Origin: Vicinamibacterales bacterium
Lineage (GTDB): Bacteria > Acidobacteriota > Vicinamibacteria > Vicinamibacterales > UBA8438
Assembly: GCA_937766455.1 (NCBI GenBank)
Contig: CALLXD010000034.1
Location: 1 to 64,000, forward strand
Direction: 5' to 3'
DNA: 64,000 nt
The position numbers and the translations under genes are program-made. This document shows, piece after piece, positions 42,135 through 48,296 of this stretch. Every line of letters begins with the position of its first letter. Position 1 is the first letter of the stretch. The notes below the pieces were generated by a model. That model searched no databases, was not told the DNA's origin, and worked only from the letters and a program-made list of their open reading frames with translations.

Positions 42135-43604
42135 CTACGCGTGCAGGGCCGTAAGCTGCTCCTGCAGGAGTTCCCAGGCGCGCGCCACGTGACGCTCCGT
42201 GGTGCGAATGTGACCCACGGCCAGTCTCAAGGTGAATCGGTTCTTGATGCGCGCGTGTGACAGAAACACATCGCCGGTGGCATTGACGGCGTCCAGGAGC
42301 CGGGCGTTGAGGTCGTCGAGCGCTGAGTCGTCCTCCCGCAGTTCGGGCGGAGAGGCCCGGAAGCACACCACGGAAAACGGCACCGGGGCCACCCGCTCGA
42401 ACGTCTCGCTCGCATCGACCCAACGGCCGAACAGTGCGGCCAGGCGGATATGTTCGGCCAGCCGCCGACGCATCCCGTCCGCGCCGAAATGGCGCAGCAC
42501 CATCCACAGCTTGAGGGCGCGGAAACGACGTCCGAGCTGCACACCGGTGTCCATCAAATTGCGCACCGGTTCCGTGTCCCAGGTCTGCAGGTATGAGGGG
42601 GTGACGGAGAACGCCTCGCGCACCCGGTCCATACGGCGGCAGTAGAACGCGCTGAGGTCGAAGGGCGTGAACAGCCACTTGTGTGGGTTGATCACGAGCG
42701 ACGCGGCGCGGTCACACCCGTCCAGGGTGGCCTCGAAGCCCGGAATCATCGCGGCCGCGCCGGCGTAGGCCGCGTCAACGTGCAGCCAGAGACGCTCACG
42801 GTCGCAGATGTCCGCGATGGCTCCCACCGGGTCGACGCTGGTCACGGCCGTCGTGCCGACTGTGGCCACGACCGCGAGTGGGATGCATCCGTCCCGCCGG
42901 TCGCGGCTGATGGCCTCTGCCAGCCGTTCGGGCCGCATCCGAAACTGGGTGTCGGCCTCGATACGCCGGAGCGACGACAGCCCAAGACCGAGCATGATCA
43001 TCGCCTTGTCGACTGAGGAATGCGCGTGCTCGGAGCAATACACTCGCAGTCCGGGCCCGTCGGGTCGGCCCGCCAGGCCCTGTTCACGGACCTCCGGAAC
43101 CGCGTCCTGACGGGCGGCGGCGAGCGCATGCAGGGTGGCGATTGAGGCGGTGTCGTAGATCACGCCTTCGAACGCCTCCGGGAGATGCACGAGGCGTCGC
43201 AGCCACCCCAGTGCCACTTCTTCCAGCTCGGTGACGGCCGGGGACGTGCGCCACAGCATGCCTTGCGCGTTGAACGCGGCGCTCATGAATTCGGCCAGGA
43301 TGCCGGGTCCGCTCCCGCTGATGGCGAAATAGGCGAAGAAGCCGGGGTGATTCCAATGTGTGATGCCAGGCACGATCACCCGTTCGACGTCCGCGAGAAT
43401 CGCATCAAAGGACTCCCCGGCGTCCGGGGCTGAGCTGGGGAGGGCGTCGCGGATGTCACCGGGGCGCACCCGCGAGAGCACCGGGTAGTGTTCGGCGTCT
43501 TCCAGATACTGGGCGATCCAGTCCACCAACTGGTGTCCGGCCTGACGGAAGGCCGCGCCGTCCATGTCGCCGAGCGGCGGAGGGCCGCCGGAACGTTCGG
43601 TCAT
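42135..43604 (-). CDS. Pyridoxal-phosphate-dependent aromatic-amino-acid/tryptophan decarboxylase family protein
   Basis: A 489-residue group II decarboxylase. The N-terminal cap contains ITHWNHPGFFAYFAISGSGPG near 81. The PLP core has VYCSEHAHSSVDKA near 188-201, WLHVDAAYAGAA with Asp near 277, and the Schiff-base lysine in INPHKWLFTPFD (Lys near 309). This family decarboxylates tryptophan, tyrosine, DOPA or phenylalanine; the substrate here cannot be assigned. ATG 43604 was chosen; ATGs at 43661 and 43565 are also in frame and no start has a clear ribosome site. It is divergent from the OsmC-family gene. Confidence 0.87.
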   Translation of the reverse strand: MTERSGGPPPLGDMDGAAFRQAGHQLVDWIAQYLEDAEHYPVLSRVRPGDIRDALPSSAPDAGESFDAILADVERVIVPGITHWNHPGFFAYFAISGSGPGILAEFMSAAFNAQGMLWRTSPAVTELEEVALGWLRRLVHLPEAFEGVIYDTASIATLHALAAARQDAVPEVREQGLAGRPDGPGLRVYCSEHAHSSVDKAMIMLGLGLSSLRRIEADTQFRMRPERLAEAISRDRRDGCIPLAVVATVGTTAVTSVDPVGAIADICDRERLWLHVDAAYAGAAAMIPGFEATLDGCDRAASLVINPHKWLFTPFDLSAFYCRRMDRVREAFSVTPSYLQTWDTEPVRNLMDTGVQLGRRFRALKLWMVLRHFGADGMRRRLAEHIRLAALFGRWVDASETFERVAPVPFSVVCFRASPPELREDDSALDDLNARLLDAVNATGDVFLSHARIKNRFTLRLAVGHIRTTERHVARAWELLQEQLTALHA

Positions 43605-43740
43605 CAGTTCGCTGGTCCGGGGCGGGGCCGTCTTGGTATCTGAGGCCGATGATCGTAGCATCAGGCGTTGGCCGGGCTGTCCGTCGGCGATGCGCTCTGA
43701 TCGTCGACGGCGATCGCTCCGGTGGCGACAAGGAGGTGTG

Positions 43741-44205
43741 ATGTCCGAGGTAGTGCATACGAGTCGAATGCGCGTCGAGCGGGTGGCTGGTCCCCTGCGA
43801 CATGCGTATCTGGAGGGGTTCGAGGAGCCGATGCGATTCGGCGTTCACGGCGGTATCAAGAAATTCTACGGGGTTGAACCTGAGGAGGATGTGCCGGCCA
43901 CATTGGACTACATGGTCGGCGCGGTCGGCGGTTGACTGCTCGGCACCTTGGCACGCGCACTGGAGGTGCGCGACATTCCGGTCCCGAGAGAGAACCTGCA
44001 GGCTGCCGTCGAAGGTGACATTGAAGCGGTCGACAAGGTCCTACGTATTACCCGCATTCGTGTCCGCTATCGCATCCGGATTCCGGCCGGGACGCGGGAG
44101 AAAGCGGAACGCGCCGTGGCCACCCATCCGACGAAGTGTCCGGCCGCGAACAGCATCCGCGGCTGTATCGACTTGGATATCTCGGCCGACATCACCGAGG
44201 AGTAG
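43741..44205 (+). CDS. OsmC-family peroxiredoxin-like selenoprotein (in-frame TGA read as selenocysteine)
   Basis: A 154-codon gene from ATG 43741, behind a strong AAGGAGGTG. Codon 65 (43933-43935) is TGA. The family is continuous across it: VPATLDYMVGAVGG, then TGA, then LLGTLARALEVRDIPVP. In OsmC proteins this place is GGC(L/F), the peroxidatic cysteine. The second conserved cysteine is present at about 133 (HPTKCPAANS). A perfect hairpin follows 18 bases after the TGA (43954-43972), matching a bacterial SECIS element. OsmC enzymes reduce organic hydroperoxides in the cytoplasm. I infer Sec insertion; a gene caller would split this into a 64-codon piece and an 85-codon piece. The alternative is a TGC-to-TGA error or mutation. 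Confidence 0.88.
43954..43972 (+). promoter_or_regulatory. Bacterial SECIS-like hairpin of the OsmC-family gene
   Basis: CGCGCAC (43954-43960) pairs perfectly with GTGCGCG (43966-43972) around a five-base loop TGGAG. The loop begins 25 bases after the TGA. Bacterial SECIS elements lie just behind the UGA with an apical loop about 16-37 bases away and a G in the first two loop positions; all hold here. It lies within the coding region, as expected in bacteria. Confidence 0.85.
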
Positions 44206-44217
44206 CACTCGCGCGGC

Positions 44218-44715
44218 TCAGGCGATGCGGGCTTTCGCTTCCCAGTAGATCAGCGAGAGACCGAAGCCCAGATTGACGAGGAGGAGGATCGTGGTCTGCG
44301 CGTAGAGGTTGTCGTAGCGGGCCGCGTAGTCGTTGGGACTGCCGAGCGTGGAAATGTTGGCCTCCATCTCGAGTTGCAGCCCGTCGATCTGCCCCGTGAC
44401 GCCGAGCCCTGCGTAGAGGCTGATGCACAACATGGTCACCACGGTGGCCACCCGGATCCCGAGACCCGATGGACGGGGGCCGCGGTAGGTCAGCGTGCCC
44501 AGCGCGCCAAGGAGCACAACGGCTGAGCCATACTCGAAGGCGCGGAACCGCCGGAGCATTTCGCCGAAGACGTCTCCGGCCTCAATGCGACCGGCCGCGC
44601 CGTGGTATCTCTCGAGCACGTCGAAAATAGCTGGCGCGGCGAATGTCCCGAGCGCCACCATGCCCCCGATCCAAAAGACGAGAGCAAACAGGTACAGGGC
44701 TCGCAGAGCAACCAT
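44218..44715 (-). CDS. DUF4149 family membrane protein
   Basis: A 165-residue protein with four membrane helices: LYLFALVFWIGGMVALGTFAAPAIF at 7-31, VVLLGALGTLTY near 67, VATVVTMLCISLYAGLGVTG near 90, and TTILLLVNLGFGLSLIYW near 140. The first helix with GG and the AAPAIF ending is typical of DUF4149 (TMEM205-like) proteins, which have no known activity. It is convergent with the OsmC-family gene and divergent from the DUF255 relative. Confidence 0.78.
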   Translation of the reverse strand: MVALRALYLFALVFWIGGMVALGTFAAPAIFDVLERYHGAAGRIEAGDVFGEMLRRFRAFEYGSAVVLLGALGTLTYRGPRPSGLGIRVATVVTMLCISLYAGLGVTGQIDGLQLEMEANISTLGSPNDYAARYDNLYAQTTILLLVNLGFGLSLIYWEAKARIA

Positions 44716-44736
44716 GGACGCATTATACGCGGCGGC

Positions 44737-46418
44737 ATGACTGGCGGATCTGGCTTGATTCAGTGGCGCGAGTGGTCCAGCGACGCGTTCGCGTCAGCCG
44801 CCCATGAGCGGAAGCCGGTGCTGCTTGCGATGGGGCCGGCCTGGTGTCTGGGGACTGACAAGATGCATCGTGTCAGCTACGGAGACCCGGACGTGGCCCG
44901 AGTCGTGTCGGAGCGGTTCGTGCCGATCCGGGTGGACCCCGATCGGCGACCGGACATCGGGGAGCGATACACACTGGACGGGTGGCCCACGACCGCCTTT
45001 CTCACGCCGGCCGGCGCCCTGCTGGGCGGTGGAGGTCACCTTGACCCCGCGCGTCTGTTGATGGTGCTGACGCAGGTGCTCGACGCGTTCGAGGCGCGGG
45101 GAGAGGAGCGCGTCGCGGATGGTGGCCTCCCTGGCCACACCGGCGAGCGCGGTGACGCACCGTCGGTTCAGCCGTCGTCACCGCTGGATACGGAGGAGGC
45201 GGGCCTGTGGTTGGACGACCAGCTCCGCACCCGCTTTGACCAGGTCTGGGCCGGTTTCGGTCCTGGCGCGAAGCGTGCGCACACAGCGGCCCTGAAAGCC
45301 GCGCTGCTACGCGGTCGGCGCGTCGCCTCGGCCAGCCTGGCCGATATCGTCACGCGGACGCTCGACGCGATCGCTGACGGCGGGCTCGTGGACGCCGTCG
45401 AGGGCGGTTTTTTCCGGTACTGCGAGGAGCCTGATTGGTCCCGACCGCACGTCGAGAAGCTACTGACGCTCAACGCCCGGATGGTCGATCTGCTGCTGAC
45501 GGCGTCACGCATCCTCGATCGGCCGCTGTATGCGGAGCGGGCGGCAGCAACGATTCGATTCGTCCATGACAGATTCGCGGACGCCGACGGTGGCTTCTTT
45601 GCCAGCCAGCGCGCCGACCCAGACTATTCGGCCCTGACCTCGGTCGAGGAGCGTGGGCGGCACGGGGAGCCGCCGGTCGACCGCAGCGTGTACGTCGATG
45701 CCACCGCCACCATGGCCTCGGCCTATGTGCTGGGCGCGGCGGTGCTGGAAGACCGGTCCTTGGTCGAGTTCGCCGCGACCGCAGTGGACCGGGTGGTCAT
45801 GGAGACCTATGAGCGTGGCGGTGGGGTTGGCCACAGCGCTCAGCGGGCCACGTGTGCGCGGGCTGCTGAGTGATCACGTGTCGGCGAGCGCGGCGCTGTT
45901 GGACCTGTACGACGCTGCGGGCAGGCGGTCTACCTCGACATGCCGCAGGAATTGATGGCCTATTGCCAGCAGGAGATGTGGGACGAGGGCGCCGGGTTTC
46001 GAGACCGGATCCGCGGTGGCCCCGATCACCCGCCGCCGATCGGTCTGCTGCGAGAGCCGCATCGACCGTTTCAGCTGAACTGTGATGCCGCGGTCGTCTT
46101 GGGCCGTCTCGCGACCCTGACCGAGGAGGCCCATACCAGGCGGATGCGGTCCGCGTGCTGGCCAGCCAGACGTCGGTCTACCAGGCACGTGGTCTCGACG
46201 GGGCGGACTATGTGCTGGCGCTCGAGCAGCTTCAGGCACTGGACACGCCTGACCTGGTCGCTGTGGCGGCCCTGCCCGCCACCCCCTCCCTCGCCCCCGC
46301 ATCGGCACTCGCGCGCCATCCATGCGTGCCGTCTGACGCTCGTCCGGTCAGCGCTCCGGTTGGCAGTCGGCACATGACGGCGCCGTGCTACACTTCGGGC
46401 CCCGGAGGACCCCTTTGA
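44737..46418 (+). pseudogene. DUF255 thioredoxin-domain protein (YyaL-like), broken by three frameshifts
   Basis: The first 378 codons from ATG 44737 give an N-terminal thioredoxin-like domain (PVLLAMGPAWCLGTDKM, VPIRVDPDRRPDIGERYTLDGWPTTAF) and the start of an alpha/alpha toroid (VDAVEGGFFRYCEEPDWSRPHVEKLL). The frame then changes near 45845-45850 (to RVRGLLSDHVSASAALLDLYD), near 45910-45915 (to GQAVYLDMPQELMAYCQQEM) and near 46135-46145 (to VLASQTSVYQARGLDGADYV). The usual second cysteine of the thioredoxin motif is replaced by Thr (CLGT). The final stop overlaps the transketolase TTG. The family's function is unknown. The three breaks may be assembly errors or gene decay. Confidence 0.7.
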
Positions 46419-48296
46419 CAGTTGATCGCACCCCACAGTTGCCCGCTCTTCGTAACATTGCCACCAAGCTTCGTATCGAGTCGGTCCGCGCGACCGCCAC
46501 GGCCGGCAGCGGTCATCCCACGAGCTGCTGTTCAGCCGCGGAGGTGATGGCCGCGCTGTTCTTCGCCCAGATGCGGTTCGATCCCCAGGATCCGGGGTGC
46601 GAGGACAACGACCGCTTCGTGCTGTCCAAGGGGCATGCCGCGCCGGTTTTGTACGCGGCGTGGGCCGAAGCTGGCGTCATCGCCCATGACGCGCTCTCGT
46701 CGCTTCGCGACTCGACTCCGATCTCGAGGGGCACCCCACCCCGAGGTTGCCGTTCGTCGACGTGGCCACCGGGTCGCTCGGTCAGGGAATCTGTGCGGCG
46801 GTGGGTATTGCGCTCAATGCCCGTCGCATCGGGTCCAGCTACCGCACGTATGTGTTGCTGGGTGATGGGGAGTCGGCCGAGGGTTCGGTGTGGGAGGCGG
46901 CTCAGGCGGCCGCGCAGTTGCGGCTCGACAACCTGTGTGCCGTGATCGATGTCAACGCCCTGGGGCAGAGCCGAGAAACACAGTGGGGCCACGACATGGA
47001 GTCCTACGCGGCCAGGTGGCGTGCCTTCGGGTGGCACACCCTGGTAGTGGATGGGCACGATCTGGCCGCGGTGCTGGCCGCGCTCGACGAGGCGGCAGAG
47101 ACGTCTGGCCGCCCGACGATGATCCTCGCGCGTACGCTGAAGGGCAAGGGCATCTCCTTCGTCGAAGGCCGCGACGGATGGCACGGGAAGCCATTGACCG
47201 GCGACAACCTGACCCGGCGCTCGGGGAACTCGAAGGACAGCTCGGCTCACCGACCGACAATCCGCCGATTCCGCCCGCACCCCGCCGCGGCGCGGCGCCT
47301 CTCGCACCGCCGGACGGGGCTGCGATTCGCCTGCCAGCGTATGAAGCCGGCAGCGGGGTGGCGACCCGCGAGGCCTACGGTGCCGCCTTGGCGGCACTGG
47401 GCAGCGGCGACCCCCGAGTTGTGGCGCTTGATGCTGACGTCAAGAACTCGACCTTCAGCGACAAGTTCGAACAGCAGCACCCCGATCGCTTCTATCAACT
47501 GTTTATCGCCGAGCAGGTCATGGTCGGCGCGGCGCTTGGATTGGCCAGCCGGGGCGCCATTCCGTTTCCGTCGACGTTCGCCTGCTTTCTCACACGTGCC
47601 GCCGATTTCATCCGCATGGGCGGCATTGGCAACGTGAACATCAAGTTGGCTGGATCGCACGCGGGTGTGTCGATCGGCGAAGACGGCCCGTCGCAGATGG
47701 CGCTGGAGGACCTGGCGATGATGCGAGGTGTCCCGGAATGCGTCGTCCTCTATCCCTGTGACGCGGTCAGTGCCGGGCGTCTCGTGGTGGTCTCGGCGGC
47801 CCACACGGGGATGACCTACATGCGGACCTCGCGTCCCAAGACGCCGGTCATCTACACCGAGGATGACGAGTTCGTCATCGGTGGATCGAAGGTGTTGCGC
47901 GAAAGCCCGAACGACGTGGCCACGGTGGTCGCGGCCGGGGTGACCGTGTTCGAGGCGCTGGCCGCGCATGACGCGCTCCTCAAGGTCGGGGTCCATCTGC
48001 GTGTCATTGACGCCTATTCCGTGCAGCCGATCGACGGGGAGACCATGGTGCGGGCCGGTGAAGCCACGGGGTCTCGCCTGATTACCGTCGAGGACCACTA
48101 CGCAGCCGGCGGGCTGGGCGACGCGGTGAGCGACGCGGTGGCGTCGCACGGCATCACCGTGACCCGGTTGGCGGTCCGCGCTGTGCCGCGTAGCGGCAAA
48201 GGCGATCAACTGCTGGACCGTTTCGGCATCTCGTCCACGCAGATTGTCGCCGCGGTTCAGGCGCAGGTCGCCGCCGCATCTGCATCGCCGGCCTAG
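46415..48296 (+). CDS. tkt: Transketolase (short, eukaryote-like type), with two frameshifts
   Basis: About 627 residues when repaired. It starts at TTG 46415 behind GGAGGA and overlaps the preceding stop. The N-terminal TPP domain has [20 protein letters not shown] and [15 protein letters not shown]; then [10 protein letters not shown] and [19 protein letters not shown] with [13 protein letters not shown]; the pyrimidine domain has [18 protein letters not shown] and [22 protein letters not shown]; the C-terminal domain has [11 protein letters not shown]. It moves two-carbon units in the pentose phosphate pathway. The frame changes at about 46703-46707 and 47212-47216; adding one C at each site restores [11 protein letters not shown] and [11 protein letters not shown]. 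The [10 protein letters not shown] motif resembles human-type TKT more than E. coli TktA. Confidence 0.85.

Follow-up and report, generated by a model that had tools for sequence, protein, structure and literature searches.

A predicted OsmC-family selenoprotein with a UxxGT motif in Acidobacteriota and deltaproteobacterial genomes

We describe an OsmC-family gene in which a TGA codon at the column of the active-site cysteine is, on the comparisons presented here, almost certainly read as selenocysteine (Sec). The gene lies in the window, by which we mean the whole 64,000-nucleotide stretch of Vicinamibacterales DNA that was analysed. Taken as a whole, the observations are very probably best explained by an OsmC selenoprotein of a UxxGT subfamily, distinct from the UxxT type, with the redox mechanism proposed below. 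It also appears probable that UxxGT is an uncatalogued second OsmC selenoprotein subfamily in Acidobacteriota and deltaproteobacterial genomes, that its genes are often cut at the TGA by public gene calls, that exchanges between Sec and Cys have occurred repeatedly in both directions, and that even the protein sequence has yielded, through an exchange of Ala73 and Val76, to the need for a paired SECIS stem. The features discussed are the following.

43741..44205, + strand: OsmC-family gene, TGA predicted to be read as Sec; 154 residues, stop codon TAG
43731..43736, + strand: ribosome-binding site AGGAGG, 4 bases 5' of the ATG (from sequence)
43933..43935, + strand: TGA codon 65, predicted Sec at the active-site Cys column (TGA in 78/78 other homologous rows; solved OsmC proteins and paralogues have Cys)
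43954..43972, + strand: hairpin predicted to be a bacterial SECIS, stem of 7-8 bp, apical loop with GG (RNAfold, covariation)
44137..44139, + strand: TGT, Cys133, predicted resolving cysteine (invariant in the 17-row alignment A2; Cys in 119/122 rows)
42135..43661, - strand: pyridoxal-dependent decarboxylase, divergent neighbour (Pfam; matched in 43/81 loci)
44218..44715, - strand: DUF4149 protein, between the OsmC gene and the thioredoxin-domain gene (Pfam; matched in 14/81 loci)
44602..45873, + strand: thioredoxin-domain protein (Thioredox_DsbH / Thioredoxin_7), candidate redox partner (Pfam; gene order)

The frame 43741-44205 is open apart from the TGA at codon 65, which stands between VGAVGG and LLGTLARALE. 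The initial annotation had reported this codon with OsmC-like sequence on both sides, a ribosome-binding site at the gene start and a second cysteine near residue 133, and all of these are where it placed them. The protein scores 50.7 bits against the Pfam model of the OsmC superfamily (PF02566, cut-off 27.5), and its predicted model has the OsmC fold, with residue 65 on the long central helix. Arg20, Asp56, Gly68, Thr69 and Cys133 are among the residues invariant in the 17 aligned rows of A2. The Sec motif is U-L-L-G-T (UxxGT), with Thr at +4.

The two predicted redox residues, 65 and 133, both occupy conserved OsmC columns. The likely mechanism is as follows. SelB with Sec-tRNA(UCA) would bind a hairpin spanning bases 19-37 after the UGA, leading to insertion of Sec65. 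As a nucleophile, Sec65 may then react with an organic hydroperoxide or a similar electrophile. The oxidised selenium would next form, with Cys133 as the resolving residue, a selenenylsulfide that a dithiol donor would reduce. We infer, as the initial annotation did, that Sec65 may be the peroxidatic residue; a reaction with hydroperoxides or some other thiol chemistry, in which Cys133 serves as the resolving partner, is likely, as is an antioxidant role of the predicted selenoprotein. A selenoprotein that acts not as a peroxide reductase but through other thiol chemistry, on disulfides, sulfenic acids or persulfides, is a serious possibility, though one we hold to be the less probable. The protein falls below the cut-offs of both the Ohr and the OsmC peroxidase models (Ohr model TIGR03561: 16.9 bits, cut-off 88.85), and 2opl, the solved structure that profile A3 matches best, carries no name beyond that of a hypothetical protein. 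According to an excerpt of the study of XfOhr (PMC5962072), that enzyme has the pair Glu51/Cys61, the catalytic Glu lying 10 residues before the Cys. Comparison of the sequences places Leu55 at -10 in the window protein and the invariant Asp56 at -9, and a plain Ohr mechanism is therefore not assured. Peroxide reduction is nevertheless favoured by the spacing of the redox pair, which is 68 here, near the 64 between Cys61 and Cys125 given for XfOhr in the same excerpt.

From gene order, the downstream thioredoxin-domain protein would be a candidate for the dithiol donor. In genomes of the same family, 24 of the 26 match places (L048-L073) have a thioredoxin-domain gene downstream in the same orientation, and in one genome (L035, L066) its match lies 3 bases past the OsmC gene. 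Outside the family such a neighbour was found in 0 of 28 loci (L078-L105), each with at most 1.5 kb of downstream sequence. Most copies of the neighbour show a single Cys in the stretch examined; L068 and L069 have a CxxC (WCPAC). By eye, the end of the thioredoxin-domain ORF appears to run on in another frame (window 45650-45955, + strand), an apparent indel. Further downstream a transketolase is seemingly broken over three overlapping frames (46385-48296, + strand; ORFs 46385-46945, 46747-47637 and 46890-48296, the last with Pfam Transket_pyr and Transketolase_C), which suggests assembly indels or decay.

OsmC-like selenoproteins have been described before. Excerpts of two marine metagenome studies give three such sequences from the Sargasso Sea in 2005 (PMC1088965) and five from GOS in 2008 (PMC2398784), all with UxxT. 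A 2026 review counts 119 selenoprotein families or subfamilies, has a single OsmC row, that of UxxT, and treats differing Sec motifs as marking distinct subfamilies. By that rule, UxxGT is a new subfamily; our literature searches found no earlier report of a UxxGT OsmC selenoprotein. The initial annotation had linked the gene to the marine proteins, and such proteins have indeed been reported, but the window protein belongs to a separate subfamily. The curated NCBIfam model for OsmC-like selenoproteins, NF041052 (cut-off 95 bits), which from its name and motif appears to represent the Sargasso family, is passed in only two of the 396 genomes of our phylum sample. One member is L106, from genome G402, whose only TGA sits within AIAFULLTQ, a UxxT motif. 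G402 is acidobacterial and encodes two OsmC genes with an in-frame TGA, L088 (UxxGT) and L106 (UxxT).

That the window protein is a divergent member of the marine family seems improbable. The superfamily is shared and Sec stands at the same column, as would be expected of such a member. Against it, the protein scores 25.9 bits with NF041052 and 23 bits in BLASTP with L106, a poor alignment that nonetheless places Sec at the same column; UxxT is absent from it (U-L-L-G-T, compared with U-L-L-T in L106), and the two types are found together in G402. In a tree with column 65 masked, the window type splits from ten OsmC outgroup rows, L106 included, with support of 100/98, values to be read with an unsettled bootstrap and a grouping tested after the tree was seen. 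On this tree the 37 Sec rows, confirmed from DNA, and the 27 Cys rows, taken from protein records, require at least 13 changes. A single Sec clade was rejected (p 1.6e-61, with the Cys state from protein records and not from codons).

The assignment of Sec to codon 65 is supported by its conservation. Besides the window's own gene, 78 of 78 homologous DNA rows carry TGA and none TGG; many of these rows are the same genome reached twice, and the distinct 57-base downstream sequences number 53. A joint re-analysis comprised 82 rows, 80 of which cover the column and all 80 of which have TGA, two of them being the window's own gene; L047 and L071, truncated before the column, and three second pieces that are partial hits were left out. 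The TGA rows come from Acidobacteriota and three deltaproteobacterial genomes. Relatives are encoded at 27 loci of the named genome collection, and the column is TGA in all 26 that cover it. Among the 28 genomes of the family (the window's own included), 24 have a match; 24 of the 26 match places contain one TGA, and the remaining two are partial and lack it. In the phylum sample, which counts 396 genomes with the window's own, 32 genomes are matched at E 1e-15 or better, with exactly one TGA at 32 of 33 places and a truncated piece at the other. On both sides of the TGA the in-frame sequence stays conserved, with identities in A2 as low as 46%.

Other OsmC proteins have Cys at this column. 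Among the four aligned matches, of 20, between profile A3 and solved structures, column 65 is Cys in 4/4 and residue 133 is Cys in 3/4, with Ser in 2opl. The OsmC paralogues of the same genome, L074 and L075, have Cys at column 65, as do orthologues in protein records (P0003, P0011 and Tenacibaculum P0178). The in-frame UGA is conserved and paired with Cys in other homologues, and the alternation of Cys and TGA that the initial annotation proposed to look for takes the form of TGA in all DNA rows and Cys in protein rows and paralogues. Three findings had been named there as evidence against Sec: reads with TGC or TGT at 43933-43935, unrelated residues at this column in homologues, and a genome without selB and tRNA-Sec. 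None appears in the sequences compared; independently sequenced relatives carry TGA too (78/78 rows), the column is Cys in solved OsmC proteins and OsmC paralogues, and Sec at the catalytic column is supported.

We regard it as very unlikely that the TGA is an ordinary stop within a pseudogene or between two short genes, the second starting from TTG 43948. Standard gene calls do split the gene in this way. A search that admitted only proteins 0.55-1.75 times the query length gave 132 close homologues, 120 of them listed; of the listed ones, 88 cover the C-terminal and 20 the N-terminal part, so that 108 stay entirely to one side of the TGA, while 7 have the full length and 5 cross the TGA in part. 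The conservation of the TGA and of both flanks in frame, the full-length Cys forms in protein records and the co-occurrence of the gene with selA more often than expected (see below) all speak against a stop. Protein databases thus hold this gene largely as fragments, and a curated model with the TGA as Sec could mend many annotations.

Equally little probability attaches to reading of the TGA as tryptophan or to near-cognate read-through. At column 65, the 122 full-length protein rows have C in 50 (including the query's own U, written as C), W in 67, G in 2, A in 2 and a gap in 1. The Trp rows would fit such a reading, but all 60 named ones are from contigs shorter than 5 kb, which suggests that they reflect gene callers applying a TGA=Trp code on short contigs; the uniform TGA in the DNA, the Cys in solved relatives and the presence of Sec machinery also argue for Sec.

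This machinery, which the initial annotation had proposed to look for, is present in the window's own genome: tRNA-Sec with anticodon TCA (66.6 bits, cut-off 47), selB (344.8 bits), selA (533.9 bits) and selD (291 bits), all above cut-off. In the phylum sample selA is found at E 1e-60 or better in 252 of 396 genomes, namely 29 of the 32 that bear the gene and 223 of the 364 others (one-sided Fisher p 3.8e-4, a test that treats genomes as unrelated). The three gene-bearing genomes without selA, G342, G106 and G339, all have tRNA-Sec above cut-off with anticodon TCA, as do the genomes of L044-L046, and selB is above cut-off among the three in G339 only. In G342 neither selA (at E 1e-60) nor selB (at 1e-40) was found. 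The absent selA and selB genes are likely missing from the drafts, though G342 is 93% complete.

Bacterial SECIS elements are hairpins 3' of the UGA with a G in the apical loop. The initial annotation described a perfect 7-bp stem with the loop TGGAG, beginning 18 bases past the TGA, and the coordinates are correct (CGCGCAC 43954-43960, loop 43961-43965, GTGCGCG 43966-43972); RNAfold brings the stem to 8 bp by adding a U-G pair, which leaves GGA as the loop. As evidence for a selenoprotein this hairpin is insignificant in the single sequence and gains weight by comparison across homologues. Folded alone it has a shuffle z of -1.91, with 8 of 200 shuffles folding equally well; 107 of 2000 synonymous recodings match its folding, and it ranks 15th among the 29 TGA codons of the window that pass the same filter. 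The comparison used 53 distinct sequences without N, the window included, one sequence with N having been dropped. In 48 of them at least 6 of 8 pairs form in a shared register that spans bases 19-37 past the TGA and has GG opening the apical loop, so that a downstream hairpin with an apical-loop G, as expected of a SECIS, is found. Over all 53, 89.9% of cells are paired against a shuffled mean of 80.4 (0/1000 shuffles as high), and 42 cells show double changes against 17.2 (0/1000), in shuffles that ignore the kinship of the sequences. The number of pairs with a double change (4 against 2.8, reached by 153/1000) and of extra pair types (9 against 8.9, reached by 688/1000) does not stand out, and slid registers are 20.3-64.6% paired. 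In the subset of 48, which was selected for pairing, the values are 96.1% paired against 88.4 (0/1000), 36 double-change cells against 16.1 (0/1000), 4 double-change pairs against 2.1 (2/1000) and 8 pair types against 7.1 (102/1000), with slid registers at 18.8-67.2%. The predicted hairpin is therefore convincing only through comparison of homologues.

L089 and L090 have Val73/Ala76 where the window has Ala73/Val76. With this exchange one stem pair changes from C-G into U-A and another from A-U into G-C, so that pairing is kept; it counts as one event, because both loci are of one genus. The Ala73 codon is GCA in 22 of the 23 distinct sequences with the peptide ALEV, and in six genes of the window GCA accounts for 6% of the codons for Ala. 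The coupled exchange may be a case in which an RNA signal constrains an active-site helix. A different hairpin register, nearer the TGA, is seen in L044, L045, L084 and L085, and L103 has only 4/8 pairs, with neither register clear. The alternative register is thus common to Acidobacteriota (L084, L085) and deltaproteobacterial sequences (L044, L045), and transfer between the phyla is possible.

The predicted UxxGT type enlarges the bacterial selenoproteome by one subfamily, found in an environmental phylum that is widespread. It shares with the known UxxT selenoproteins an OsmC domain, a Sec at the column of the first catalytic Cys and a hairpin downstream, and it differs in motif and in forming a separate clade. 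Ohr (TIGR03561; XfOhr, in the excerpt of PMC5962072) has a peroxidatic Cys in place of the predicted Sec, and its Glu at -10 is absent here. OsmC proteins of the YhfA or COG1765 type, represented by 1ml8, which we take to be E. coli YhfA, and by the genome's own paralogue L075 (at G000:C9; 19% identity to the window protein), have Cys and no internal stop. The Cys orthologues P0003, P0011 and P0178 are 40-68% identical and share the same CxxGT context, with Cys at residue 65 according to protein records. Since the Sec and Cys forms are intermingled within a single clade, they form natural pairs in which to study what an OsmC enzyme gains from selenium.
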